This document shows positions 39,549 to 64,000 of a stretch of 64,000 bases of DNA, one piece after another. The notes below the pieces were generated by a model. It saw only the letters and a program-made list of their open reading frames with translations, did no database searches and had not been told where the DNA came from. Origin of the DNA: Herbinix hemicellulosilytica (GTDB lineage: Bacteria > Bacillota > Clostridia > Lachnospirales > Lachnospiraceae); assembly GCF_002904165.1 (NCBI RefSeq), contig NZ_CVTD020000008.1:372001-436000 (forward strand), in the 5' to 3' direction. Made by a program: the position numbers and the translations under genes. Position 1 is the first letter of the stretch. Every line of letters begins with the position of its first letter.

Positions 39549-41198
39549 ATGAAGGAGTTACTGCTTTCACGAAAATCAAAATTTATTCTATACCTAATTG
39601 CGACTTTTATGTTTATTATTGACCATTTCGCCCAAATGGGAGTTAATGCTTTAATTATGGGTGCCATAGAAAAGAGAGATTTGGCATATTATAAGATGGT
39701 AGTGCTTATAACAGCAGTTTATATTATATACGCACCCTTAAATTTCCTTATTTCAAGACTGCTTAGAATTAGGTATATGAGGGATACCATACTGGATGTA
39801 CGCAAGCAGGCATTTAAAAAGATTATAAATATGCCTTTCAAGCAGTATTCTCAAAAATCCAAGGATGTTTATATATCCAATTTGATAAATGATGTTAACA
39901 ATTTTGAGAATAAATTTTTTATAAGCTTTTTAAACTTTCTGATAAACGTAGGCATGTTCATTATTTCTCTTGTGATTCTCATAGTTCTTGATTTGAAACT
40001 TTCAATTGCTATGTTAATGTTTTCGGTTTTACTGTATTTCCTAGCAAGCCTTTTTACCAAAAAGACTACTTCACTGGAGCAGGAAATATCGACTTCAGGA
40101 GAAGCATTTACAACGGAAATGTCAAATACGTTTAACGGTCTTGAAATTTTGAAACTGAATAATATTGAAGATAAATTTTTACATAAAAGCGTTGCTGCAA
40201 TAAACCGTCTGGAAAAGAGAAAATATATGGCCAATGTTTTTAATCATCTGCAGCGGGACGTTATTTATGTTCTGTCATTTGCGGTTTCGGTTGCTGTGGT
40301 GATTTATTTGGGTTTTCAGTTACAGAACGGTATGGCCTTGTCAGAGGCAACATTATTATTTCTTCTTTCAACTTCCGTAAGCAACTACCTGATTAATGCG
40401 TTTCCCATGTGGAATCAAGTCAAGGCTTCAACCGCAATTTATAAAAAGATAGCAAAACCTGAGGAAAGCACTGTAAAAGCCGGAAGGGGAACCAAAGATT
40501 TTAAATTTGAAGATAAAATAGAAGTTTCCCATGTGAATTTTTCCTTTGGCAACAAGCAAATTTTAAAGGATGCCTCATTTACGATAGAAAAAGGCAAAAA
40601 GTATCTTATTAAAGGAGTCAGCGGTGCGGGAAAAAGTACCTTAATAAATCTGCTTGCCATGGTGTATGACGACTACGAAGGAAATATCAAAGTGGACCAG
40701 GTGGATTACAGGGATATATCCGAAAAATCTTTTCATGAGAAGGTGGCATTTATATATCAGGATGTTTTCCTCTTTGAGGATACGATAAAAAATAATATTG
40801 CCTTATATCAGGATATTCCGGAGGAACGGATAAATTATGCTATAAAAGTAGCGGGACTTGAAGAGTTTATAAAGGAAAGAAAAGAAGGGATAAATGAAAG
40901 GCTGGCCGAAAACGGCAAGAACTTATCGGGTGGCCAAAGGCAAAGAATTTCTATAGCAAGAGCTATTGCAAAAAATGCGGAAATCCTGTTTATAGACGAA
41001 GGAACATCAAGCTTAAACGAAGAATTGGGAAGGGAAATAGAAAAGACTTTTTTACAGTTAAACAGCACAGTTATTGCTATAAGCCACAGGTACTATGAAG
41101 GGGTTACCGAAAATTACGATTATGTAATTGAAATTAAAAACGGCAAAGTACATTGCTTCCCGGCCAAAGATTATTTTGAGGAGGTGATCACATGGTAA
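39549..41198 (+). CDS. ABC exporter half-transporter (first subunit)
   Basis: This 549-residue protein has six membrane spans (about 10-300) and an ATPase domain: Walker A GVSGAGKSTL, signature LSGGQRQRISIARA, Walker B ILFIDEGTSSLN with the catalytic Glu, and H-loop ISHR. It overlaps the next half-transporter by 7 bp; the two probably form a heterodimer. The substrate is unknown, and no peptide or regulator gene is adjacent. Confidence 0.95.
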   Translation: MKELLLSRKSKFILYLIATFMFIIDHFAQMGVNALIMGAIEKRDLAYYKMVVLITAVYIIYAPLNFLISRLLRIRYMRDTILDVRKQAFKKIINMPFKQYSQKSKDVYISNLINDVNNFENKFFISFLNFLINVGMFIISLVILIVLDLKLSIAMLMFSVLLYFLASLFTKKTTSLEQEISTSGEAFTTEMSNTFNGLEILKLNNIEDKFLHKSVAAINRLEKRKYMANVFNHLQRDVIYVLSFAVSVAVVIYLGFQLQNGMALSEATLLFLLSTSVSNYLINAFPMWNQVKASTAIYKKIAKPEESTVKAGRGTKDFKFEDKIEVSHVNFSFGNKQILKDASFTIEKGKKYLIKGVSGAGKSTLINLLAMVYDDYEGNIKVDQVDYRDISEKSFHEKVAFIYQDVFLFEDTIKNNIALYQDIPEERINYAIKVAGLEEFIKERKEGINERLAENGKNLSGGQRQRISIARAIAKNAEILFIDEGTSSLNEELGREIEKTFLQLNSTVIAISHRYYEGVTENYDYVIEIKNGKVHCFPAKDYFEEVITW

Positions 41199-42808
41199 AA
41201 AAACTGCTTAAATTAGTGCCATATTTGATTTTGGCTTTGGTAATTACAGGGTTTAATTCTTTTTTGGACGGGCTTACCAATATACGAATGACCAGGCTTC
41301 TTGATTTAGCCATTAACGGCCAAACCAGGGAATTAAAAAGCCAAATACCCGGTATGCTTGTGATCGCCTTTGCCCTTGTCCCGATGGGAATTCTGGTCGG
41401 CATTGTAAGTAATTTTTATAAAAGAAAGGCAAACAGTACTTTAAAGCAATATTATTTAACAAAGGTTTTTAACAAAAACATAGCCGAGTTTCAAAAAGAA
41501 AACAACGCAAAATATCTGTCTGCCATGACCAACGATTTTAATACTTTGGAAACTAACCTTATTACAGGTATCTATTCGGTATTTGAATCGGTAATGACCT
41601 TTATCGTGGGCATATGGATGTTGTCAACCGTGGATACCAGAATGATTATACTGGCTGTTATTCTTATATTAATAAACCTGGTTATATCTATGATAGCATC
41701 AAAACCGTCAAAAAAAGCTCATAAAGAACGAAGCGATATGTTTGATGCTTATACTTCTTATATCAAGGAAATCCTTTCGGCATTTCATATTGTAAAAAAC
41801 TATAATCTTCAGCAGAAAGTAAATGAAGACTACAACAAAAAAAGCGAAGAAATCCAGCAAAAAGGATTTATTATTGAGAGAATGCTGTCATTTGTCATGA
41901 GCCTTGAAAACTTCCTTATGAACGGTGCAATATTCGGAATGTATATATTGATAGGATATTTTTCGGTTAAAGGAAGTGTTTCAGTTGGCGAAGTACTGCT
42001 GGTTATAAACGGAGTTCAGAAGATGGCCTGGCCCTTATTCAATATCAGCGAAAACCTTCCGAAGATCTTTACGTCAGGGGATTTAATAAAAAAGATAGAA
42101 AAGACTCTTAAAAACACCGATACTTATGTGGAATCCGTATCTTTGCCGGATTTTAATGAAGAAATAGAATTTAAAAATGTGGAATTCGGTTACGATGATT
42201 CCGAAGAGCCCGTTCTTACCGATATAAATTTTAAGATAAAAAAGAACGGAAAATACCTGGTGGTTGGGCCTAGCGGCGGGGGAAAATCAACTTTGCTTAA
42301 ATTATTCAGAAAATATTTTAACCCGACAAAAGGCATGATTCTGATTGACGGCAATAACCTGAAGGATGTAATAAGGGAAGATTATTATAAATTAATAGGA
42401 AATATAGAACAGCAGGTATTTATTTTTGAAGATACGGTTAGAAATAACCTGACTCTTTATAAGGATTACTCTGAGGAAGAAATTGAAGCAGCCATAGAAG
42501 CGGCAGGGCTTACGGAATTCGTAAAACAGCTTCCCAATGGGCTTGATACTGTAATTTATGACAACGGGCGAAATATTTCAGGGGGAGAAAGAAGCAGGAT
42601 TGTAATAGCGAGGGCACTTTTGAACAAGGCAAAAATCCTTTTGATGGATGAGGCTTTTGCTTCTCTTGACATGGAAAGAGCAAGAGAAATTGAGAAAACT
42701 ATTTTGAATTTGAAAGATATTACAGTAATTAATGTCAGCCATGTGATTTTTAAAGACACAAAAAAGCTGTATGACAAAGTATTTACTGTCAAAAAAACTG
42801 TATATTAA
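41192..42808 (+). CDS. ABC exporter half-transporter (second subunit)
   Basis: This 538-residue protein has six membrane spans and an ATPase domain with Walker A GPSGGGKSTL, signature ISGGERSRIVIARA, Walker B ILLMDEAFASLD and H-loop NVSH. The catalytic Glu and His are kept in both subunits, so both ATP sites may be active. GGAGGTG precedes the ATG. Confidence 0.95.
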   Translation: MVKKLLKLVPYLILALVITGFNSFLDGLTNIRMTRLLDLAINGQTRELKSQIPGMLVIAFALVPMGILVGIVSNFYKRKANSTLKQYYLTKVFNKNIAEFQKENNAKYLSAMTNDFNTLETNLITGIYSVFESVMTFIVGIWMLSTVDTRMIILAVILILINLVISMIASKPSKKAHKERSDMFDAYTSYIKEILSAFHIVKNYNLQQKVNEDYNKKSEEIQQKGFIIERMLSFVMSLENFLMNGAIFGMYILIGYFSVKGSVSVGEVLLVINGVQKMAWPLFNISENLPKIFTSGDLIKKIEKTLKNTDTYVESVSLPDFNEEIEFKNVEFGYDDSEEPVLTDINFKIKKNGKYLVVGPSGGGKSTLLKLFRKYFNPTKGMILIDGNNLKDVIREDYYKLIGNIEQQVFIFEDTVRNNLTLYKDYSEEEIEAAIEAAGLTEFVKQLPNGLDTVIYDNGRNISGGERSRIVIARALLNKAKILLMDEAFASLDMERAREIEKTILNLKDITVINVSHVIFKDTKKLYDKVFTVKKTVY

Positions 42809-55263: not shown

Positions 55264-55271
55264 AAATAAGG

Positions 55272-55303
55272 CAGGGACATTCCGTTAGGAATGTCCCTGT
55301 TTT
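55272..55303. terminator. Bidirectional terminator
   Basis: A 12-bp perfect stem CAGGGACATTCC (55272-55283) pairs with GGAATGTCCCTG (55288-55299) across a GTTA loop. It separates the Nudix gene from the convergent peptide cluster and marks the cluster's left boundary. Confidence 0.9.
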
Positions 55304-55326
55304 GATTATCGAATCATATTTCCGGA

Positions 55327-55974
55327 CTAAATATTACCAAGATAATAAGAAATCAGAGAAAATGCATTAACAAACATGTGTAATATTACACAATACAAAA
55401 TATTATTTGTTTTAATATAAATAAGTGAGAATATTATGCTTATCATTATATAGAATAATGAATTAATGCTGTCAAAGTGCATAATTGTAAAAAATATACC
55501 GGTAATAGCAATAGACCAGGCAACGGATAACTTTTCTCTTAAGATTTCATAGAGAGCTCCTCTGACCAGGAATTCTTCTAACAAGGGAGCAGAAATACAT
55601 GCCTGGATAAAGAAGGCAACCGGATATTGTAATAAAGCCTGAATGCTGGAACCCCTGCTTTGGGATGCGGCATCAGGTGTGAAAACTTTATCTATAAATA
55701 CATCAACTGTTGTTTCATAGATAAAGATAAGGGCAAATAATACGATTGTATATAAAATTAACTTAAGAGGGTTAATTTTGTATGATATTTTGATTTTAAT
55801 TATGCTTGCGACATATGAAACATATGCTATATTCAGTATCAGCTGAAAGATTCGCCTGATAGCGTATGTAACCTGGTCATATTCATTATTAAATAATATG
55901 TCTAAAAACAAACCTGCAAGAGAATATACTAAAAGATATATTATAAAGCTGGTTACAAACTTACCGAGTTTCAA
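55327..55974 (-). CDS. CPBP family intramembrane metalloprotease
   Basis: The protein has about 215 residues with six or more membrane spans. The three CPBP motifs are visible: EEFLVRGALYEIL (EExxxR), FTIMHFDS (FxxxH), and HMFVNAF (HxxxN). CPBP (Abi) proteins cleave membrane-bound substrates and are common in bacteriocin clusters as processing or immunity proteins. The frame opens at a TTG at 56004, but AAAGGGA points to the TTG at 55974. It is the last gene of the peptide cluster, 80 bp after the radical SAM gene. Confidence 0.85.
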   Translation of the reverse strand: MKLGKFVTSFIIYLLVYSLAGLFLDILFNNEYDQVTYAIRRIFQLILNIAYVSYVASIIKIKISYKINPLKLILYTIVLFALIFIYETTVDVFIDKVFTPDAASQSRGSSIQALLQYPVAFFIQACISAPLLEEFLVRGALYEILREKLSVAWSIAITGIFFTIMHFDSINSLFYIMISIIFSLIYIKTNNILYCVILHMFVNAFSLISYYLGNI

Positions 55975-56053
55975 TATAAATTCCCTTTCTTTATATTTTT
56001 GCAATATGTGACTTTTATTTTAGAAGAAAAAGTCGGATATTAGTTATAAAATA

Positions 56054-57880
56054 TCAGACATAGATAGGTACACAATCTATTCTGACTTTTGTTTGGGTCT
56101 CTTTTGTGAGAATGAACTTATAAAATCCTTTTGGAGAAATAAGTTCTCCATGTTTTCTTAATTCCATTAAATTATTGTTATAAACCTTTTCAATCTGCTC
56201 ATTTTCTTTGCCTAAAACTCTCAGGAAAACAATGTTTTTATCTAAATCAAACAGTTCTCTAATTAATAAAGTTTCAGAATTAGTATCTTTTTGTGCTAAG
56301 TAATTAACGTATTTTTCCAAAAGAGAATTTCTTTTAATTAATAATGTTTTGTTATTACCACAGGCAATATTAAAGTTTTCTACAAATATATTTTTAAATT
56401 CTTCTTCCAGATTTTCTATAAATGTTTCATAAAATTTTAAAACATCATTTTCATGATATGTTACTATGGAATTTATGGATGTTTTATATCCCAAAGATAT
56501 CATACTTACAAGTATCCACATAAATTTATCTAAGTATTTATATTTTTGCCGTGTCGCATTACTGAAATCATAAAAATGCGGGAACATTTCAGGGTAAGTC
56601 TTGAACATTTCAAAAAAATATTCGAATTCTTCACTATTGAAAAAGTATAAATTGTCAATATCTTTTTCTATGTAAAGCTGATTTTTCAGTTCATCATAAA
56701 GTTCGGTACCATTTTCAACGTTTAAAATACCTATTTCGGGAAACCAAAAGTTATTAGCCGCACCGATTAGCATCATATTCAGTGTTATATTTACATCATC
56801 CTTTGTCTCGCCAGGAAAACCGTATATAAAGCCGGCTTCAACTTTTATTCCGTGTTTGCGAATTATTTTTACTTTATCCCAGATGGTTTCTATTTTAATA
56901 TGCTTTTTGATCAGTTTTTGAATTTTATCGGATCCGGACTCTATACCTAAAAATATTTTACTGCATCCGGCTTGCTTCATAATTGAAACTAATTCTTCAG
57001 AAATAGTGTCAACTCTTGCACTGCATATCCAGCGAATTTTAATTCCTTTTTTTATAATTTCATTACAGAAATCTATAACAATTTTCTTATTAAATGTAAA
57101 CAGATCATGCAAAAAATGAAAATCGGTTGCACCATATTTTTGCATTATATATTCTATCTCTTCTATTAATCTTGAAGTACTCTTCATTCTAAACTTTTGC
57201 TTCCAGAATGTTTTTGTGCAACAGAATGTGCAAGAAAACGGACAACTGCGGCCGACTTCTATCGGAAATGTAATTTTATTACTTTTATCCAGATCAATAT
57301 CCAGATTTATTAAATCATAATCCAATAGTGGTATTTCATCTAAATTTTCAAGTATTTCAGTTTCCTGAGTTTTTATAACATTGTCAGCATAGCGATATGC
57401 TATACCTTTTATATCAAATAGCTTTCCAGAATTATTTTCTATAAGTGCTTTAATAATTGGGACAATATTTAATTCACATTCACCTATAACAATAAGATCA
57501 ATCCAAGAGAAAGCTTTTAAAGTTTCTATAGCAGTCAGGCTTGCCTGATGACCTCCTAATATAATTTTCACATTTGAATCTTTACTTTTAATAATTCTTG
57601 ACAATTCAATAGCAATATGATGACATGTGCTGTTTGTACTAAAACCAATTACCTTGGCATTTAGATTGTCAAGATATTCAGCCATATCATTTATAAGGTT
57701 ATTTATTTTTTTATCTTTATTCAATATCCTTTTTTCCCATAAGTAATTGAAGTCAACTATGGCAACTTCAAAACCGGCTTTTTTCAATATAGTTCCCACA
57801 GTCAGCGGACCAAGAGCAATAGTTGAATAAGAATCCCGTATTTTTATCGGATTAACTAATACTACATCGTATTTTTTCAT
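56054..57880 (-). CDS. B12-binding-domain radical SAM protein of the peptide cluster
   Basis: This 608-residue enzyme has a cobalamin-binding-like N-terminal domain (about 1-165, with LGPLTVGTILKKAGFEVAIVD and ILGGHQASLTAIETL), but I do not see the DxHxxG motif, so B12 may bind base-off without His or not at all. The radical SAM core has CPFSCTFCC (Cys 213, 217, 220, CxxxCxxC) and FLGIESGSD. The C-terminal region (about 400-608) is not recognised. Such enzymes methylate, epimerise or crosslink. Its place in the operon makes it the likely modifier of the precursor peptides. Confidence 0.85.
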   Translation of the reverse strand: MKKYDVVLVNPIKIRDSYSTIALGPLTVGTILKKAGFEVAIVDFNYLWEKRILNKDKKINNLINDMAEYLDNLNAKVIGFSTNSTCHHIAIELSRIIKSKDSNVKIILGGHQASLTAIETLKAFSWIDLIVIGECELNIVPIIKALIENNSGKLFDIKGIAYRYADNVIKTQETEILENLDEIPLLDYDLINLDIDLDKSNKITFPIEVGRSCPFSCTFCCTKTFWKQKFRMKSTSRLIEEIEYIMQKYGATDFHFLHDLFTFNKKIVIDFCNEIIKKGIKIRWICSARVDTISEELVSIMKQAGCSKIFLGIESGSDKIQKLIKKHIKIETIWDKVKIIRKHGIKVEAGFIYGFPGETKDDVNITLNMMLIGAANNFWFPEIGILNVENGTELYDELKNQLYIEKDIDNLYFFNSEEFEYFFEMFKTYPEMFPHFYDFSNATRQKYKYLDKFMWILVSMISLGYKTSINSIVTYHENDVLKFYETFIENLEEEFKNIFVENFNIACGNNKTLLIKRNSLLEKYVNYLAQKDTNSETLLIRELFDLDKNIVFLRVLGKENEQIEKVYNNNLMELRKHGELISPKGFYKFILTKETQTKVRIDCVPIYV

Positions 57881-57891
57881 AATTAATTCAC

Positions 57892-58215
57892 CTATGCAAT
57901 TTTATTGTAAAATATAATAATAAAAATTGAAAATATTAAACGTATAAAATGATGTAACCAATTAGGTCTTTTATGAAGCATAAGACCATTTAATACGGCT
58001 AAGATCTGCAAAAGAAGAAGGCCGATGCACAAAGTCCACATAAAAAATACGTTATATGATATTAAGCCAATATTAGAAATTAATATTAAAATGCAACTGA
58101 CAATACATAATACAAGTCTGAGAGCAGATTTTCTTAACTCTTTATTTGTCATGAATGCAATTAAAAATAATATTGAATATAAGCTAATAACAAAACTTAA
58201 AATACTTTTTAAAAT
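57892..58215 (-). CDS. Small membrane protein with apparent non-AUG start
   Basis: The ATG at 58152 gives 86 residues with three membrane spans but has no ribosome binding site. The same frame is open back to an ATT at 58213-58215, which adds a further hydrophobic helix (SILSFVISLYSILFLIAF). GGAAGG lies 9 nt before that ATT and only 14 bp separate it from the upstream gene's stop, as expected in this tight operon. I prefer the longer 107-residue form with four spans, start codon uncertain. Possibly an immunity or transport accessory; no family recognised. Confidence 0.55.
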   Translation of the reverse strand: MLKSILSFVISLYSILFLIAFMTNKELRKSALRLVLCIVSCILILISNIGLISYNVFFMWTLCIGLLLLQILAVLNGLMLHKRPNWLHHFIRLIFSIFIIIFYNKIA

Positions 58216-58229
58216 AAAATCACACCTTC

Positions 58230-59276
58230 CTATATTCTCAATCTAATTCCATGGGTCACTGCATACTGAAGGAAGATTAAAGTAGCTATAAAACACGCTC
58301 CCCACAGCAAATATACCCAAAGTTTATTTTTTTCAATATAATCTATTTTTTCTCTTTTAAATAAGCTTATTATAATTTTAATAAAATAGTGTCTTAAACG
58401 AAACGAATTGGTAATAAGGCAAAAAATATTGTATCCGTCGCTTTTAAAGAGAAAAGGATAAAAATTCAAGCCCATATATGAATAACCTATTATAGAAAAA
58501 CAACAAAAAGTAAAGGCCAAATTTTTTAATCCTAACATCATAAAAATGTATCCAATTAGAGAAAAGCTGCCACATAAACCCGCAGTTATAAGATCAACAT
58601 GCAAAATAGTCTTAATTATTTTTTTTCTTTCCAAACTTAAGAGAAATTCCCAATTAACAACAACGCTTATAAAAACACCTAAGAGGAAACGTAATTTAAA
58701 TTTCAAATTTTCTTTCCCGCCATAAACACTTATAAATCGAGCCAACCATAATTCGTGGTATAAAGCGATGAATAATCCGATTAAAAAAAAGCTCCATACC
58801 CTTGGTACATCATTCCATGAAAAACCTGTGTAATTAATGAGTACTATATTGGTGTATATTGATGTAATAACAAAAAGTAATGAAAGTATAGTTACAAGGT
58901 AAATATTTAATTTACATAATATATTATTTACTATGAAAATAAAGGGTGCTGATGGTATCTTAAATTTTGTTATCTTTCTGAAATAATAACCAAATGTCTT
59001 TCTTTTAATAAACGGGGTTCTTGGTTCAATAATTAATTTTTCAAATGCAAACTTATTAATCAAATTTTGCATTTTAGCGTTATCAATATGCTGATATTTG
59101 CTAATAACTTCAGCAACAGTTTTTTCGGAACGGAATTCCTGCAATATTTCATATTGAAGAGAAGTTAAAATTACCAGTCCACGGGGAGTTTTTATGTAGT
59201 ATTTGTCATTATAATTGCTTACTTCCAATCCGGTTTGAATAATAAAACTGGATGTATCTTTAGGTTCTAATACCAA
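58230..59276 (-). CDS. PqqD-like domain fused to degenerate M50-like membrane protein
   Basis: The protein has about 348 residues. Residues 15-90 look like a PqqD/RRE-type winged helix (RGLVILTSLQYEILQEFRSEKTVAEVISKY), which in RiPP systems binds leader peptides. After that come about six membrane spans. HELWLARF (174-181) and PFLFKSDGYNIF (274-285) sit where M50 peptidases have HExxH and the DG motif, as in YydH-like proteins. The second zinc His is replaced, so activity is doubtful. The start is uncertain: TTG at 59276, or a rarer codon nearer the GGAGG at about 59291-59296. It overlaps the M16 gene. Confidence 0.65.
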   Translation of the reverse strand: MVLEPKDTSSFIIQTGLEVSNYNDKYYIKTPRGLVILTSLQYEILQEFRSEKTVAEVISKYQHIDNAKMQNLINKFAFEKLIIEPRTPFIKRKTFGYYFRKITKFKIPSAPFIFIVNNILCKLNIYLVTILSLLFVITSIYTNIVLINYTGFSWNDVPRVWSFFLIGLFIALYHELWLARFISVYGGKENLKFKLRFLLGVFISVVVNWEFLLSLERKKIIKTILHVDLITAGLCGSFSLIGYIFMMLGLKNLAFTFCCFSIIGYSYMGLNFYPFLFKSDGYNIFCLITNSFRLRHYFIKIIISLFKREKIDYIEKNKLWVYLLWGACFIATLIFLQYAVTHGIRLRI

Positions 59277-60372
59277 TGACTCTCTGATATGGATCCTCCT
59301 CTCTAGACTCTAAATATTTAATAAATTCTTCAAAGTTACAGACATCCGGATCTTCACCTGTTAAGATTGTATTTCTGTATCCTAAGGATAACATTTCACT
59401 TGTGGCATTGTCAGATTGAATCATATTTTTTGTTCTAAGTTGTTGTCTATGTTTTTCCATTTCCTGCAGGTTTATTTTCTGGCTAAATATCTTTTTAATA
59501 ATATCTTGAGAAATACCTAAATCTTGTTTACGTATTTTAAATATCCAAAATGTTATAAGTCCACTATGCAAATTCATGTTTGCCGTATTAATCCTATATG
59601 TAAGACCATATTCTTCCCTGAGTTTGTTAAACAATTGATCTTTAATATATTCTGAATAAACAAGTCCTTCATTTCTGTGGACTTTATGAAAAAATTGGCT
59701 CAGTCCATAGTAGTAATATTCGCAATCATAATTATCAATCAGGTATTTATTCTTTCCGATAACATCTATATCTTTAAATACATTTGTGTTTATTTCAGAT
59801 TTGTAATATGCATTATTGCTAAGCGATATTTTATTTATGTCACCGACGATAGTAATAAATTTATCACCGGTAAAAAAAGAATCATAAATATCAATTAAAT
59901 CATATTGCGTTATATTTTCAACAGATTCAATATTTCCCATTATATTAAAATTAGGACAGCTATTTTCGAACATTTGAAGCAATAATTGCTTTTTAATTTC
60001 TTCAACATAATTGTAATGATATTCTATTTCTCTCTTAATAATCAGTTTCTCATTTTCAAAAGATACATCTTTAGAAAGATCAAATTTTTCATTTAGCAAA
60101 TTATAAATAAAATTGTATGCTTCAGAAAAATTATCTTTTATACACAATACATAAAAGCACATTAATTCTTGAGAAGTAAAGGCGTTGATTACCAGCCCCG
60201 ATTCCTTAAATTTAAGCGTTTGTTCTTTTACATAAGGAATATTGAAAATGATATGTTCAAGAAAATGATGTTCGCCTTCTTTACCAACACGGTCAAAAAA
60301 GGAGCCTTTTGTGAACCATCCGCCAATTGCTATGGAGTTTATCTTTTTTTCATTATTTATAATGTGATGCAT
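59260..60372 (-). CDS. M16 family zinc peptidase
   Basis: The protein has about 370 residues. The inverted zinc motif HxxEH is in HHFLEHIIF (about residues 35-43) and the distal Glu is in SFENEKLIIKREIEYH. The second half (LREEYGLTYRINTANMNLHSGLITFWI) matches the usual non-catalytic M16 half, so it is a compact but complete two-domain member. Single M16 peptidases in RiPP clusters remove leader peptides. GGGAGG before the ATG at 60372 decides the start, inside the end of the upstream kinase-like gene. Confidence 0.85.
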   Translation of the reverse strand: MHHIINNEKKINSIAIGGWFTKGSFFDRVGKEGEHHFLEHIIFNIPYVKEQTLKFKESGLVINAFTSQELMCFYVLCIKDNFSEAYNFIYNLLNEKFDLSKDVSFENEKLIIKREIEYHYNYVEEIKKQLLLQMFENSCPNFNIMGNIESVENITQYDLIDIYDSFFTGDKFITIVGDINKISLSNNAYYKSEINTNVFKDIDVIGKNKYLIDNYDCEYYYYGLSQFFHKVHRNEGLVYSEYIKDQLFNKLREEYGLTYRINTANMNLHSGLITFWIFKIRKQDLGISQDIIKKIFSQKINLQEMEKHRQQLRTKNMIQSDNATSEMLSLGYRNTILTGEDPDVCNFEEFIKYLESREEDPYQRVIGIRT

Positions 60373-61406
60373 TGATCCTCCCATAATTTGGTTATTTCCT
60401 TGTTATCTGATTGGAATTTTAAATTGATCTGATAAAAAGGAATTTTCTCCAATAAACACATAACTTGATAACCTAATATAAAATTGTATTCGGAATAAAC
60501 AAACCATTTATTTGGATATTCGCTTAGCAACGGGATACTGATCTTGCCAATATCCTTTTCGCTCAACCTGAAACATTCTGATTTATTAATAAACATGATT
60601 TGGGGCAAAATAATACACTTTATCTTATAGGGTTTATATAAGTTTGAAATTTTATAAATTTCTCTGTATATAGTTAAATTGTCATATGTTATTTGCTCGT
60701 TAAAAATGCCTGTTTTATTGTTATTTATAATTTTTATATATTGCCCGTATGGGTATGCTAAACCGGTACTGTCAATAAATGCTATATCATCGCTTAACAT
60801 TTTATATTTGCCTGTATTGCAAAATAAACGAGCTGTGGTAGTTTTGCCTGATTGACTGTTTCCCATAATCAAAATACATTCATCATCTTCACATCCGATA
60901 AGAGAGGAATGTATTGGGAAAAAACCTAATTTAAGATGATTTTCAATAATTAATCCTTCAATAATTTTTATTAAATAAGGGAAAAAATTTTTTAAGTCAA
61001 AGATTTCTTTATACTTTATTTCAGCAAAATGAAAACCTTTATTTATTTTATTAACAATACCGTCTGATATATACAAATAATCATCATAGTAAATTGCTTT
61101 TAAAATATTGTCTCTCTCTTCAATATGATAAATATATTTTGCTATATCATCAGTCGAAATAAAATTTTTAGAAATTTGAATAAATATAATTGGCCCTTTA
61201 AAACCTAGCAAAGGGATTTTTTCAAAATAATTCTCTAACTCCGATACAGCGACAGAATCATCTGCTGTAACAAAAAGCCCGACCTTATTAACAATTGATG
61301 AAAAATGATAATTAAGTATATAATTTTTTAGAGATAAATCTACTCCTAACTCCTTATCAAACATATTTACTTTTTTACCATCGCTGATAATTGTATACTT
61401 ACCCAT
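60357..61406 (-). CDS. HPr-kinase-like ATPase 2
   Basis: This 349-residue protein has an N-terminal domain (1-165) of unknown fold and then an HprK-like ATPase: PIHSSLIG, P-loop GNSQSGKT (182-189), and LSDDIAFI (about 204-211) as Walker B. It is unlike true HPr kinase because the HPr-recognition region and signature sequence are absent. Homologues in lasso-peptide clusters phosphorylate the last Ser of the precursor. AAGG precedes the ATG, 9 bp after the nucleotidyltransferase stop. Confidence 0.8.
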   Translation of the reverse strand: MGKYTIISDGKKVNMFDKELGVDLSLKNYILNYHFSSIVNKVGLFVTADDSVAVSELENYFEKIPLLGFKGPIIFIQISKNFISTDDIAKYIYHIEERDNILKAIYYDDYLYISDGIVNKINKGFHFAEIKYKEIFDLKNFFPYLIKIIEGLIIENHLKLGFFPIHSSLIGCEDDECILIMGNSQSGKTTTARLFCNTGKYKMLSDDIAFIDSTGLAYPYGQYIKIINNNKTGIFNEQITYDNLTIYREIYKISNLYKPYKIKCIILPQIMFINKSECFRLSEKDIGKISIPLLSEYPNKWFVYSEYNFILGYQVMCLLEKIPFYQINLKFQSDNKEITKLWEDQCITL

Positions 61407-61415
61407 AATCTAACC

Positions 61416-62086
61416 TTATAAATACTCCTTGATTAGTTTTTTTGCTTTTGCTAAAAATTGATCTTCCGATAAATTTTGTGGCCATCTTATGGACAGATAG
61501 TCCTTGTAATCATCGCATGATAAAATTTGTTGCAAAAACATATGCTGCCATTTTATATGCAACCAAAACATATCGTTTTTAATTAAAATAGCAGTTCCTA
61601 TATTAACGGCTGCCATCTGAAAAGAATGATTTTTCAACAGCCAATCGTCTGTTTTTGAATCATTGAAAAAGTTTGTTGCTGTATATATAAAACGCTTTAT
61701 CAGGGCGTCTTTATTTTTGAATCGCTTATATGATTCTATAAGATTTTTACATTCCCTGTCTGATTCTAATATTTGAGATGTCAATATTCTGCCAGCCATT
61801 ATATTAAGATCCAAAATTTGTTTAAACAACATATTTTCATAGTTATCCAAAGCAATTTTGAGATCATTAATGTCCATAAAATCTATTTGAATTCTTTTTC
61901 CGTCGTCTGTTATAAAAGCATCTATTTTTTTTTTATTTTTATAATCAGTAACAACCAAGATATCAAAATCCGAGTACTTATTAGCAAATCCGACCGCATA
62001 TGAACCATGTAACAAAATCGCTCTTATATTATACAGATTTTTTTTTTACAGTATTCTTTTACTAAATTTAAAATTCTTTCATTCAT
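61416..62086 (-). pseudogene. Nucleotidyltransferase (GSx10DxD), frame broken at an A10 tract
   Basis: The C-terminal open part starts near 62015 and holds HGSYAVG...SDFDI, an exact GSx10DxD nucleotidyltransferase motif. The natural start is the ATG at 62084-62086, with CAGGAGG upstream and an ATGA overlap with the preceding stop, but that frame ends after 20 codons. The two frames join perfectly if the ten A residues (62038-62047, T on the plus strand) were eleven, giving about 223 residues. It may be a real frameshift, slippage-controlled expression, or a sequencing error. Related enzymes glycosylate the phosphorylated Ser in lasso clusters. Confidence 0.75.
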
Positions 62087-62985
62087 ATAGTAGCCTCCTG
62101 TATTTCATTGGCAAATTCTTTAATATTCATCATTTTGCTGTTATATCGTAAATTTTGGATTATTTCATACTGTTCATTGGAAATATTTGCGCCTAAAATA
62201 ATATTTTTATAAAAAATATTATTTATGAAATCATGCCGCATTATATTATTTTTATAGTCTGTTAAGATATAAATCTTTTTTATATTCTCAATCGATAAAT
62301 CCTTACATTTTTTTAAATTTATATCTATAACTTTTTTGTATTCACCTGTAAGATAGCCTTTTATAATATAATGCAGTTTTAAATTACAGTCTGCAAAGAA
62401 AGCGGCTTCTACATCCGGATTTATTGCTGGAAATCGTTCCAATACTTCAATGCTTTTTTTGTCTATGAGAACGAATTCATCTGTATATACATCCCATCCG
62501 TTTATATATGCATACAAAACAGAAGATGTTTTTCCTGAACCTTTAGCCCCTATTATTAAATATAATGATTTATCACGACCAATTAAAGCTGCATGAAAAC
62601 CAAAGGGATAAAGTTTTAGCTTACATTCCCTTATTATTTCGCAGATTTTGCTTCTTAAATATGAATAGATATTTTGAATGTCTCTAATAAAGAGAGTATA
62701 TGAAAATTCTTCCTTAATCAGTATTTCATCAGAATCTATTTCAATGGTTCTTGTACTATACTGATCTTTCCATATTTCCCTACGGTTTAGAGGATGATAT
62801 CCAACTCGAATGCAATTTTTTAGTGTATCACGGCTGTATTCTTGATACGGCAAAATAGTTATACTATATTTAGGACAATATTTTAGTACTTGATTGCCTC
62901 CTAATTCCTTACTCAACAATATAACTTGATCTTTTATATCAAAAGATGAGTATATGTTTATGTTATAAAAAGAGAAATAAATCAT
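62083..62985 (-). CDS. HPr-kinase-like ATPase 1
   Basis: This 300-residue protein has an N-terminal region (1-125) and an HprK-like ATPase: GFHAALIG, P-loop GAKGSGKT (146-153), and TDEFVLID (168-175) as Walker B. It differs from the second copy mainly in the N-terminal region and P-loop, so they are not recent duplicates. AAAAGGAG precedes the ATG. It is the first modification gene after the precursors and is coupled to the nucleotidyltransferase by ATGA. Confidence 0.82.
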   Translation of the reverse strand: MIYFSFYNINIYSSFDIKDQVILLSKELGGNQVLKYCPKYSITILPYQEYSRDTLKNCIRVGYHPLNRREIWKDQYSTRTIEIDSDEILIKEEFSYTLFIRDIQNIYSYLRSKICEIIRECKLKLYPFGFHAALIGRDKSLYLIIGAKGSGKTSSVLYAYINGWDVYTDEFVLIDKKSIEVLERFPAINPDVEAAFFADCNLKLHYIIKGYLTGEYKKVIDINLKKCKDLSIENIKKIYILTDYKNNIMRHDFINNIFYKNIILGANISNEQYEIIQNLRYNSKMMNIKEFANEIQEATI

Positions 62986-63008
62986 TATATGTAAGCTCCT
63001 TTTCGCAA

Positions 63009-63047
63009 ATATCGTATGGAAATAGAAGAGCTATTTCCATACGATAT
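63009..63047 (-). terminator. 17-bp perfect hairpin between precursors and modification genes
   Basis: ATATCGTATGGAAATAG (63009-63025) pairs perfectly with CTATTTCCATACGATAT (63031-63047) across a 5-nt loop. No T-run follows on the minus strand, so it is probably an RNA-stabilising or partial termination element that keeps precursor mRNA more abundant than the modification mRNA. Confidence 0.7.
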
Positions 63048-63107
63048 AATATGTAATAAATTAATTAATGCTTTGAGTGGTTTATGTTTTAGATTACAAG
63101 TTGATTT

Positions 63108-63248
63108 TTATGAAAGTAACCAAGTAATGAGTTTTTCATTCTTAGCCAAGAATCCACTTTCGCAGTCATCAAACATTGTAATCATGTCGATGTCGTTGTC
63201 TCTGGTCTCAACAGATGCTTCAAATTCGAGATATTTTTTATCTTCCAT
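63108..63248 (-). CDS. Putative RiPP precursor peptide 2 (46 aa)
   Basis: The frame starts MEDKKYLEFEA and ends ITWLLS. Residues 20-46 are identical to precursor 1 at 26 of 27 positions, including MITMFDDCESGFLAKNEK, one Cys, one Trp and a C-terminal Ser. The N-terminal half (about 1-19) is acidic and more variable, as in a leader. AAAGGAGG lies 9 nt before the ATG. It has no homology I recognise. The role as a precursor is inferred from duplication, size, ribosome binding site and the modification genes directly downstream. Confidence 0.85.
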   Translation of the reverse strand: MEDKKYLEFEASVETRDNDIDMITMFDDCESGFLAKNEKLITWLLS

Positions 63249-63300
63249 TATAATACCTCCTTTACAATATTCGGATATTATGTAATAATGTTATATTGGA

Positions 63301-63438
63301 TTATGACAGTAACCATGTAAGAAGCTTTTCATTCTTTGCCAAAAAACCGCTTTCACAGTCATCGAACATAGTTATCATGTCGATATTCTCATTTGATTCA
63401 TTTGTAGCTTCGGGCTCAAGATATTTTCTTTCTTCCAT
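63301..63438 (-). CDS. Putative RiPP precursor peptide 1 (45 aa)
   Basis: The frame starts MEERKYLEPEA and ends LTWLLS, with the same C-terminal 27 residues as precursor 2 except Leu for Ile at position 40. Conserved between both N-termini are Met-Glu, Lys-Tyr-Leu-Glu and Glu-Ala. AAAGGAGG lies 8 nt before the ATG. It is the first gene of the cluster, 52 bp before precursor 2. There is no double-Gly motif and no signal peptide. Confidence 0.85.
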   Translation of the reverse strand: MEERKYLEPEATNESNENIDMITMFDDCESGFLAKNEKLLTWLLS

Positions 63439-63481
63439 TGAATTTACCTCCTTTTATTTATTTTATTAATCACATAAACCA

Positions 63482-63517
63482 CTCTTTGTATATTTGATAA
63501 ATCAAATACACAAAGAG
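63482..63517 (-). repeat. Long inverted repeat in the precursor 5' leader
   Basis: CTCTTTGTATATTTGA (63482-63497) pairs with TCAAATACACAAAGAG (63502-63517) with one mismatch and a 4-nt loop. It lies between the precursor promoter and its first gene, and may be a leader hairpin or a regulator site. Confidence 0.65.
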
Positions 63518-63532
63518 GGATTTATATTTATG

Positions 63533-63566
63533 CACTATAAATACCATTTTCTGTTTATTAATGCAA
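63533..63566 (-). promoter_or_regulatory. Probable promoter of the precursor operon
   Basis: On the minus strand, TTGCAT (63561-63566), 17 bp, TATTTA (63538-63543). Moderate match; the leader is about 95 nt. Confidence 0.5.
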
Positions 63567-63596
63567 TAAATTTACAGGCAAAAGTAGTAAAAATAC

Positions 63597-63624
63597 TGGA
63601 CAAACGTATAAAATATGTTATAAT
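63597..63624 (+). promoter_or_regulatory. Promoter of response regulator
   Basis: TGGACA (63597-63602), 16 bp, TATAAT (63619-63624). Confidence 0.6.
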
Positions 63625-63668
63625 CTTACATATCTTGACTGCTATGACATAAGGGGGGTGCTAGTGTT

Positions 63669-64000
63669 ATGGACAATAAAATAAAAATTGCAGTATGTGA
63701 TGATGATAAATTTATTTTAAAAATAATAGAAAATAAGATAAAGGAAGTTCTACGCGAGATAAATTTTAATGACTATGATATATATTTGTTTCATAAAGGA
63801 TTAGATCTGTTAAAATCTAAATTGAATTACAATCTGGTTTTATTAGATATAGAGATGGCAGACATTGATGGCTTATCCATGGCTGTAAGATTAAATGCTT
63901 TAGAAAGTAAACCATTAATAATATTTATTTCGGCTCATAGAGATCTAATTGAATTAGGGTACCATGTAAAAGCATACAGATTTCTGACAAAGCCTATTAA
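63669..64000 (+). CDS. Response regulator receiver domain (3' end outside window)
   Basis: About 110 residues are visible. VCDDDKFI has the acidic pocket, LLDIEMADIDG the phosphoacceptor Asp, FISAH the conserved Ser, and FLTKPI the Lys. The spacing and sequence suit the LytTR (AgrA/VirR) family, but the DNA-binding domain is outside the window. AAGGGGGGTG precedes the ATG. Divergent from the peptide operon, so it may control the cluster, as AgrA-like regulators do for many peptide systems. Confidence 0.85.
   Translation, partial: MDNKIKIAVCDDDKFILKIIENKIKEVLREINFNDYDIYLFHKGLDLLKSKLNYNLVLLDIEMADIDGLSMAVRLNALESKPLIIFISAHRDLIELGYHVKAYRFLTKPI

Follow-up and report, generated by a model that had tools for sequence, protein, structure and literature searches.

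A probable RiPP-type gene cluster of Herbinix hemicellulosilytica with a lasso-type kinase homologue, a B12-binding radical SAM enzyme and a conserved precursor peptide

A compact cluster of ten minus-strand genes (55327-63438) was identified, from the open reading frame (ORF) list and domain searches, in a stretch of 64,000 nucleotides of Herbinix hemicellulosilytica (NCBI RefSeq assembly GCF_002904165.1, contig NZ_CVTD020000008.1, positions 372,001 to 436,000 of the forward strand). This whole 64-kb stretch, hereafter the window, lies within a 514-kb contig, and flanking DNA past the window end was also read. The cluster was interpreted as a locus for a ribosomally synthesized and post-translationally modified peptide (RiPP), in which lasso-type C-terminal phosphorylation and modification by a B12-binding radical S-adenosylmethionine (SAM) enzyme would act on a non-lasso peptide, the locus having been laterally acquired; taken as a whole, we rate the chances of this reading as even. 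The cluster probably represents a new, rare RiPP family. The gene set, its conserved order, the selection on the precursor, the homology and catalytic residues of the kinases, the motifs of the proteases and the radical SAM enzyme, the lack of a detectable lasso leader peptidase and the genomic island were all computed.

The unit is more than a chance assembly, because its whole order recurs in Anaerocolumna, its peptide is under purifying selection and a ribosome-binding site (AAAGGAGGT) precedes both window peptides. In Anaerocolumna sp. AGMB13025 (locus L004, NZ_CP121445.1), the same eight non-peptide genes follow one homologous peptide, all on one strand and with their order unchanged. Identities between the species were 56% for the radical SAM enzyme, 51% for the membrane protein, 40% for the M16 peptidase, 35% for the CPBP protease, 34% and 33% for kinases 1 and 2, and 31% for the small membrane protein (found in the same place); the nucleotidyltransferase (NTase) pair was assigned by position and PF01909 in both species, without alignment. 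The peptide core is near-identical while these seven aligned enzyme and membrane-protein pairs stand at 31-56%. By alignment, the Anaerocolumna peptide is 60% identical to peptide 1. All three peptides have a variable acidic N-terminal leader and a near-invariant C-terminal segment, FDDCESGFLAKxxKLxTWLLS, with 1-3 differences between any two of them over the last 21 residues, and the C-terminal residue is Ser in each. The precursor is under purifying selection: over the last 27 codons the window copies differ at 13 nucleotides and 1 amino acid, 12 of the 13 differing codons being synonymous (non-synonymous divergence, dN, 0.015 vs. synonymous divergence, dS, 0.82), and between window and Anaerocolumna peptides dN was 0.137 vs. 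dS 0.73-0.84. A short precursor gene is thereby co-conserved with modifying enzymes, which is the mark of a RiPP cluster.

The kinases were compared with those of lasso-peptide clusters. The preliminary description had called them HprK-like ATPases, a name that the Pfam HprK model does not bear out (kinase 2 scored 11.4 bits against a cut-off of 33.3 and kinase 1 gave no listing; the NCBIfam HprK-like models ScmC and HprK_rel_A gave trace scores only, 14.6 of 125 and 17.4 of 200 bits); profile comparison, however, groups them with lasso-cluster kinases. The kinase 2 pair was aligned to 11 lasso-cluster kinases with an hhalign probability of 98.6% (E 7.7e-16, 95 columns around the P-loop), kinase 1 with 94.5% (E 7.8e-8), and kinase 1 to kinase 2 with 94.9% (E 4.3e-8), whereas three column shuffles of each gave probabilities of at most 0.3% (E 0.36-0.75 for the kinase 2 comparison); the kinase of locus L064 was counted in this profile, and L065_7288, L069_7986 and L066_4821 were left out. 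In the review PMC9266682, His-Lys-Asp-Asp residues are given as essential in lasso kinases. Kinase 2 has all four in both species, as do 12 of the 14 kinases compared; the exceptions are those of L065 and L069. These comparisons make kinase 2 a homologue of the paeninodin-type lasso kinases, and the kinship of kinase 1 to lasso-cluster kinases appears weaker than that of kinase 2.

Genomic context agrees with this grouping. When the Anaerocolumna kinase 2 was searched against 72,556 plasmid records by tblastn, two weak matches were returned (E 0.001 and 0.008, covering 34% and 19% of the query), each of them in a lasso cluster. The first is on a Priestia aryabhattai plasmid, in an annotated lasso cluster, where it is flanked by a paeninodin-family precursor and a lasso PqqD chaperone; the second is on a Paenibacillus cellulosilyticus plasmid, whose lasso cluster was recognized by tblastn with the Priestia proteins. 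The Priestia gene, a probable lasso-peptide kinase (L072:3677-4612), is labelled an aldolase in its plasmid record. Among 299 family genomes, ten matched the kinase 2 pair, own genome included; five of the nine other kinase loci (L062, L063, L066, L067, L068) combined a lasso cyclase match with B1, B2 or both, and L064 had a cyclase match alone, some 7 kb off. Searches of the PDB by sequence with both kinases and the Anaerocolumna NTase gave no credible match. The structure prediction for kinase 1 was poor (mean predicted local distance difference test, pLDDT, 50.8; residues 122-300 below 50), and its fold search returned nothing usable. According to PMC9266682, the kinase PadeK phosphorylates the C-terminal Ser of a linear lasso precursor, and pseudomycoidin receives phosphate(s) and then hexose through the kinase PsmK and the NTase-like PsmN; in a rumen bacteria survey (PMC7533575), HPr kinase is reported for about 58% and NTase for about 30% of the genomes analysed for lasso clusters. 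The present cluster becomes interpretable through this link, absent from the preliminary description: a kinase together with an NTase forms the pair reported to tailor the tail of lasso peptides.

For the radical SAM enzyme, PF04055 and PF02310 both scored above their curated cut-offs, which places it among B12-binding radical SAM proteins, and its CxxxCxxC motif is conserved with Anaerocolumna. The nearest NCBIfam model was ApyD (NF050148, E 6e-77, 259.5 of 750 bits, below the equivalog threshold). ApyD methylates the Tyr beta-carbon to beta-methyltyrosine (PMC10635010). Candidate target sites in the present peptides are the conserved Trp42, Phe32 and Cys28. The M16 peptidase carries the HxxEH and family features (best PDB match 3hdi, E 4.1e-22), and it is probably active, since its HFLEH zinc site and Glu119 are conserved; M16 peptidases act as leader proteases for some class III lanthipeptides (PMC10885120). 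In the CPBP protein, EExxxR and both His sites are conserved with Anaerocolumna. These we take to be the protease motif of that family.

The membrane protein had been described as PqqD-like and M50-like. The first half of this has support from the predicted fold but none from sequence: residues 11-90 form a block with pLDDT 72-89 (the model is reliable only over about residues 10-90), and ten of the 11 best Foldseek matches (TigE, TbiB1, PbtF RRE, McbBCD, PqqD, ThcOx) were to RiPP proteins or complexes that include a part for precursor recognition, the eleventh being the class I dehydratase MadB. TigE, McbBCD and ThcOx contain RiPP recognition elements (RREs). The M50 half found no Pfam support, as the protein gave no Pfam match even at E<=10, M50 included, and only motif remnants are present; the helical part keeps HE (174-175) and NxxP....DG (271-281), and the HELWL/HELWM sequence falls short of HExxH. 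Because the second zinc His is not kept, protease activity of this protein appears doubtful.

The cluster is a laterally acquired low-GC island. GC content was 0.281 over 55327-63438 vs. 0.37 over the first 55 kb of the window, and the GC profile puts the island's edges at about 55 kb and 64.5 kb. On the right it is bounded by a tRNA-Leu(CAA) gene (64726-64808 in window numbering), whose 3' end points towards the island. When the right flank (1,001 bases) was searched in 11 genus genomes, own included, the best match in each of the other ten started at query base 334-347, the tRNA end being base 347; the match extended past the tRNA gene in eight of these ten and covered the tRNA only in two. 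Four relatives' stretches were fetched: the NUDIX gene and the tRNA lie about 250 bases apart in two (L100 and L101), which are empty sites, and 1.8 kb apart in L102, and no NUDIX match was found in the L103 stretch. None of the eight enzyme and membrane proteins, nor the regulator, was matched at E<=1e-8 in those four stretches. No integrase was seen by eye among the island ORFs, and no 11-mer is common to the two ends. Between the regulator and the tRNA-Leu gene, a segment (L002:9423-9488, about window 64423-64488 and thus outside it) matches itself inverted at 84% and may be an imperfect palindrome or terminator.

The cluster is also rare. In genome contigs of 84,980 species, searched with exact short peptide patterns of the radical SAM enzyme, 35 stretches matched and two encoded relatives, namely L004 (55%) and L005 (24%), the latter not counted as a member. 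Among 299 family genomes at E<=1e-60, the enzyme was found in its own genome and in G127 (36%, in a different RiPP-like cluster), and among 179 phylum genomes at E<=1e-80 in its own genome only. By eye, the G127 locus (L008:2056-15848) holds ABC transporters with a peptidase-like portion, two further radical SAM-like proteins and the ApyD-like B12-radical SAM enzyme (36%), with short peptide-like ORFs at L008 8781 and 9960. The membrane protein was found only in its own genome in overlapping draws of 397 family, 392 order and 391 class genomes. Twelve of 15 genomes of the Anaerocolumna genus matched the M16 peptidase at E<=1e-10, G715 alone at 1.2e-225; the other eleven (5e-24 to 4e-19) were taken as generic M16 proteins. 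Viral contigs gave 39 loci with radical SAM relatives (21-34% identity) and none for the M16 peptidase or membrane protein; plasmids gave nothing for the membrane protein, NTase or peptide. Four rhizobial plasmid records carry radical SAM relatives at 30-33%.

From these features we infer the chemical steps, the pairing of enzymes with substrates, export and function as follows. The RRE-like domain of the membrane protein would hold the leader at the membrane, and kinase 2, with kinase 1 as a second kinase or partner, would phosphorylate the C-terminal Ser, as paeninodin-type kinases do. The NTase, if functional, would join a nucleotidyl or sugar group to the phosphate. The B12-radical SAM enzyme would modify a core carbon, most simply by C-methylation, and the M16 peptidase would remove the leader; the membrane proteins and the CPBP protease may serve export, last processing or self-protection, and the LytTR regulator would control expression of the cluster.

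Several results weigh against this scheme. The full gene set is known from two genomes only, and the cluster contains no exporter. Kinase relatives exist outside lasso clusters (L065 and L069; neither these nor L070 had a cyclase, B1 or B2 match), kinase 1 has His-Lys-Asp-Glu, without the last Asp, in both species, and the lasso-like precursors at seven kinase-bearing loci (11, picked by eye) end in Ser in six cases, Lys in four and Asn in one. For the RRE-like region, the best Foldseek E value was 0.0014, none falling below 0.001 (probability up to 1.00), no Pfam hit was obtained, and hhalign against six lasso B1 proteins gave E 0.25, within the 0.17-0.68 of five shuffles. The NTase frame is split, so that this enzyme may be dead in the present genome. 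By eye, one of the loci named above (L069:5993-8546, genome G126) holds a PqqD-like protein, a radical SAM-like protein, a peptide-like ORF and an HprK-like protein; such kinases are therefore not confined to lasso peptides.

The split of the NTase frame bears on a narrower account, in which the NTase, and perhaps kinase 1 too, is nonfunctional here and the product is only phosphorylated and C-methylated. The ATG expected to open the NTase directly after kinase 1 is cut off from the remaining frame at an A10 run, and the only two A/T runs of at least 9 in the window are both A10 on the minus strand within the NTase gene (62038-62047 and 61925-61934); kinase 1 has the altered HKDE set. After the split, however, an open 199-codon frame still carries the catalytic motif, and the Anaerocolumna NTase gene is open (its product matched nothing in plasmids by tblastn). 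A10 runs can allow transcriptional slippage, and the run at 62038-62047 is possibly such a site; the split may reflect slippage, an assembly error or true inactivation. HKDE is common to both species, so its presence in kinase 1 is not recent decay. We consider this loss of function doubtful, although it is the most credible of the alternatives.

Less credible still is that the product is a peptide signal, not an antimicrobial, which feeds the LytTR regulator; we hold this to be unlikely. The regulator adjoins the window cluster, a homologous regulator adjoins that of Anaerocolumna, and an agr-type locus with AgrB lies just downstream there. The two regulators, however, share only 27% identity and sit in different places, no histidine kinase was seen among the ORFs read beside the window cluster, and the AgrD-like ORF of Anaerocolumna would explain its own signal. 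That agr-type locus (L004:13374-16605, right downstream of the cluster; AgrB PF04647, 122.9 bits) also holds, by eye and blastp, a helix-turn-helix protein, a LytTR-like regulator, a histidine kinase and a 48-aa AgrD-like ORF. An agr system as the core of the window cluster was considered and rejected, as no AgrB-like ORF was seen among the listed ORFs around it, a dedicated AgrB search not having been made.

That the product is a lasso-like macrolactam after all, with Gly31 linked to the position-7 acid (Glu37) through a cyclase that is encoded elsewhere or was not recognised, is very unlikely. Counted from Gly31, position 7 is acidic in all three peptides (E, E, D; Asp in Anaerocolumna), so the peptide sequence alone is compatible with a macrolactam, and a lasso-type kinase is present. 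Position -2 before Gly31 is Glu, however, and not the Thr of lasso leaders (with the leader-core boundary assumed). The lasso B2 leader peptidase profile PF13471 was silent in both the own (G000) and the Anaerocolumna (G715) genomes and matched the lasso-bearing genomes G066 and G096 in the same search; a B2 protein query was likewise silent in G000 and G715, with no positive control for that query. No asparagine-synthetase-like cyclase was found among the ten cluster proteins (NCBIfam, Pfam), the remaining genome not having been searched for one. A non-peptide pathway, with incidental short ORFs and enzymes acting elsewhere, is highly improbable, for although neither NCBIfam nor Pfam has a family that matches the peptides, their position, sequence and selection are conserved, and of four genomes searched with the peptide only the two cluster-bearing ones matched, at the cluster, with none in G127 or G254.

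The RiPP-type reading was compared with known systems. Paeninodin and pseudomycoidin lasso clusters resemble the present one in a homologous kinase with the four catalytic residues (kinase 2 here), an NTase beside the kinase, a precursor ending in Ser and an RRE-like domain (predicted here). They differ in that no B2 was found here, the cluster has no cyclase or ABC exporter and has M16, CPBP and B12-radical SAM proteins instead, the RRE-like domain is fused to a membrane protein and there are two kinases. The aminopyruvatide pathway shares an ApyD-like radical SAM/B12 protein, although at the partial score given above; no MNIO, P450 or methyltransferase was seen in the cluster, and the precursor is another one. 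Epipeptide (EpeX/YydF) and pearlin clusters are similar in having a radical SAM enzyme (epipeptide) and a polytopic membrane protein with HE and NxxP....DG remnants, but here Pfam M50, the second zinc His and an ABC transporter are lacking, the N-terminus is RRE-like and the radical SAM enzyme binds B12. SynChlorMet/HprK cassettes (ScmC, HprK_rel_A) likewise place an HprK-like protein with radical SAM and PqqD-type parts, whereas the match to them is at trace scores only and the precursor and enzymes are other. Class III lanthipeptide pathways (PttP1/PttP2; PMC10885120) share the M16 peptidase as likely leader protease, but use a pair where a single M16 protein is present here, and no lanthionine synthetase was seen.

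The proposal that the gene set is a new combination gained support: no reported cluster with the same gene order was found, and the sole full syntenic homologue, in Anaerocolumna, carries the peptide. The literature search returned no recognisable description of this gene set, which is weak evidence of absence as most subscription journals lay outside it. Once its chemistry is shown, the cluster could possibly define a new RiPP class. In passages of PMC9266682 and PMC7533575, kinases and NTase partners are discussed as lasso-peptide decorations; in the present cluster a kinase homologous to these, accompanied by an NTase, is tied to another peptide scaffold and to a B12-radical SAM enzyme. If this holds, C-terminal Ser phosphorylation would be a portable RiPP module. 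A bolder version, rather improbable in our estimate, starts from a C-methylated peptide that is not a lasso: its C-terminal Ser would be phosphorylated and then linked by the NTase to a nucleotide or sugar, giving a peptide-phosphate conjugate reminiscent of microcin C, so that the lasso tail cassette would be the class-defining chemistry of a new RiPP class. If the main reading is right, the near-invariant 21-residue core would offer a ready, testable substrate, and the predicted membrane-anchored RRE-like domain, if real, would be an unusual way to gather a maturation complex.

Table 1. Features of the cluster and its surroundings, in window coordinates
Feature	Position	Strand	Evidence
Precursor peptide 1, 45 aa, C-terminal Ser	63301..63438	-	ORF, AAAGGAGGT ribosome-binding site, alignment with copy 2 and Anaerocolumna peptide
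Precursor peptide 2, 46 aa, 80% identical to peptide 1	63108..63248	-	ORF, alignment, ribosome-binding site
HprK-like kinase 1, 300 aa, P-loop GAKGSGKT	62083..62985	-	hhalign, motif columns
NTase, GS...G...SDFD motif, intact 199-codon frame, TTG start	61416..62015	-	PF01909
A10 run splitting likely NTase N-terminal codons from remaining frame	62038..62047	-	Sequence, run list
HprK-like kinase 2, 349 aa, P-loop GNSQSGKT	60357..61406	-	hhalign, motif columns, Anaerocolumna homologue matching lasso clusters
M16 metallopeptidase	59260..60384	-	PF00675, PDB 3hdi match, alignment
Membrane protein, N-terminal RRE-like domain (about residues 10-92) and helical part, partial M50-like motifs	58230..59276	-	Predicted fold, Foldseek, alignment
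Small membrane protein, 86 aa (membrane nature read from sequence)	57892..58152	-	ORF, counterpart in Anaerocolumna
B12-binding radical SAM enzyme, CPFSCTFC cluster motif	56054..57880	-	NF050148, PF04055, PF02310
CPBP intramembrane protease, EExxxR, His176, His209/Asn213	55327..56004	-	PF02517, alignment
AT-rich palindrome	63482..63517	-	Palindrome count vs. shuffles
Divergent LytTR response regulator, continuing to about 64373 outside the window	63669..64000	+	PF04397
Low-GC accessory island, NUDIX gene to tRNA-Leu (right edge about 64725, outside the window)	55264..64000		GC, empty sites in relatives

The preliminary description had listed nine minus-strand genes with tight or overlapping spacing. 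The tight run stands, with the count corrected to ten: the membrane protein and M16 genes overlap, as do those of the M16 peptidase and kinase 2, the remaining neighbour gaps from kinase 1 through the CPBP gene are 9-77 bases, and 122 bases separate peptide 2 from the start of kinase 1. The order given, two kinases and then the NTase, was wrong; from the peptides it runs kinase 1, NTase, kinase 2, M16. Its other assignments were upheld, namely two paralogous peptides (80% identical), an M16 peptidase (PF00675, 42.3 bits vs. a cut-off of 22.3), a radical SAM enzyme, here found to be B12-binding (PF04055, 88.7 vs. 29.5; PF02310, 44.8 vs. 32.1), a CPBP protease (PF02517, 68.6 vs. 22.4), a nucleotidyltransferase next to a kinase (PF01909, 26.7 vs. 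21, with 30 bits for the Anaerocolumna homologue) and a divergent response regulator, of LytTR type (PF04397, 72.3 vs. 22.6). The remark that no exporter is in view also holds for the DNA read beyond the window, where, past the tRNA-Leu gene, the ORFs to L002:19000 resemble housekeeping genes (such as PolA and CoaE; named by eye). Two adjacent ABC half-transporters lie at window 39549-42808, about 12.5 kb from the cluster and outside the island, and nothing ties them to peptide export.

The Rfam search recovered the tRNA and, below threshold, six matches to eukaryotic RNA families, of which three fall on the palindrome. No LytTR-type direct repeat was found in the window (0.4 expected). Upstream of the Anaerocolumna peptide there is a repeat of this type, CCATTCGG occurring twice with a 21-base period (2 overlapping registers with at most 1 mismatch, 0.2 expected). 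The palindrome of the window has 16 pairs (one G-T) and a loop of 4, lies between the divergent regulator and the peptide genes, 43 bases upstream of peptide 1 (1 found vs. 0.2 expected in shuffles) and is a candidate operator or attenuator.

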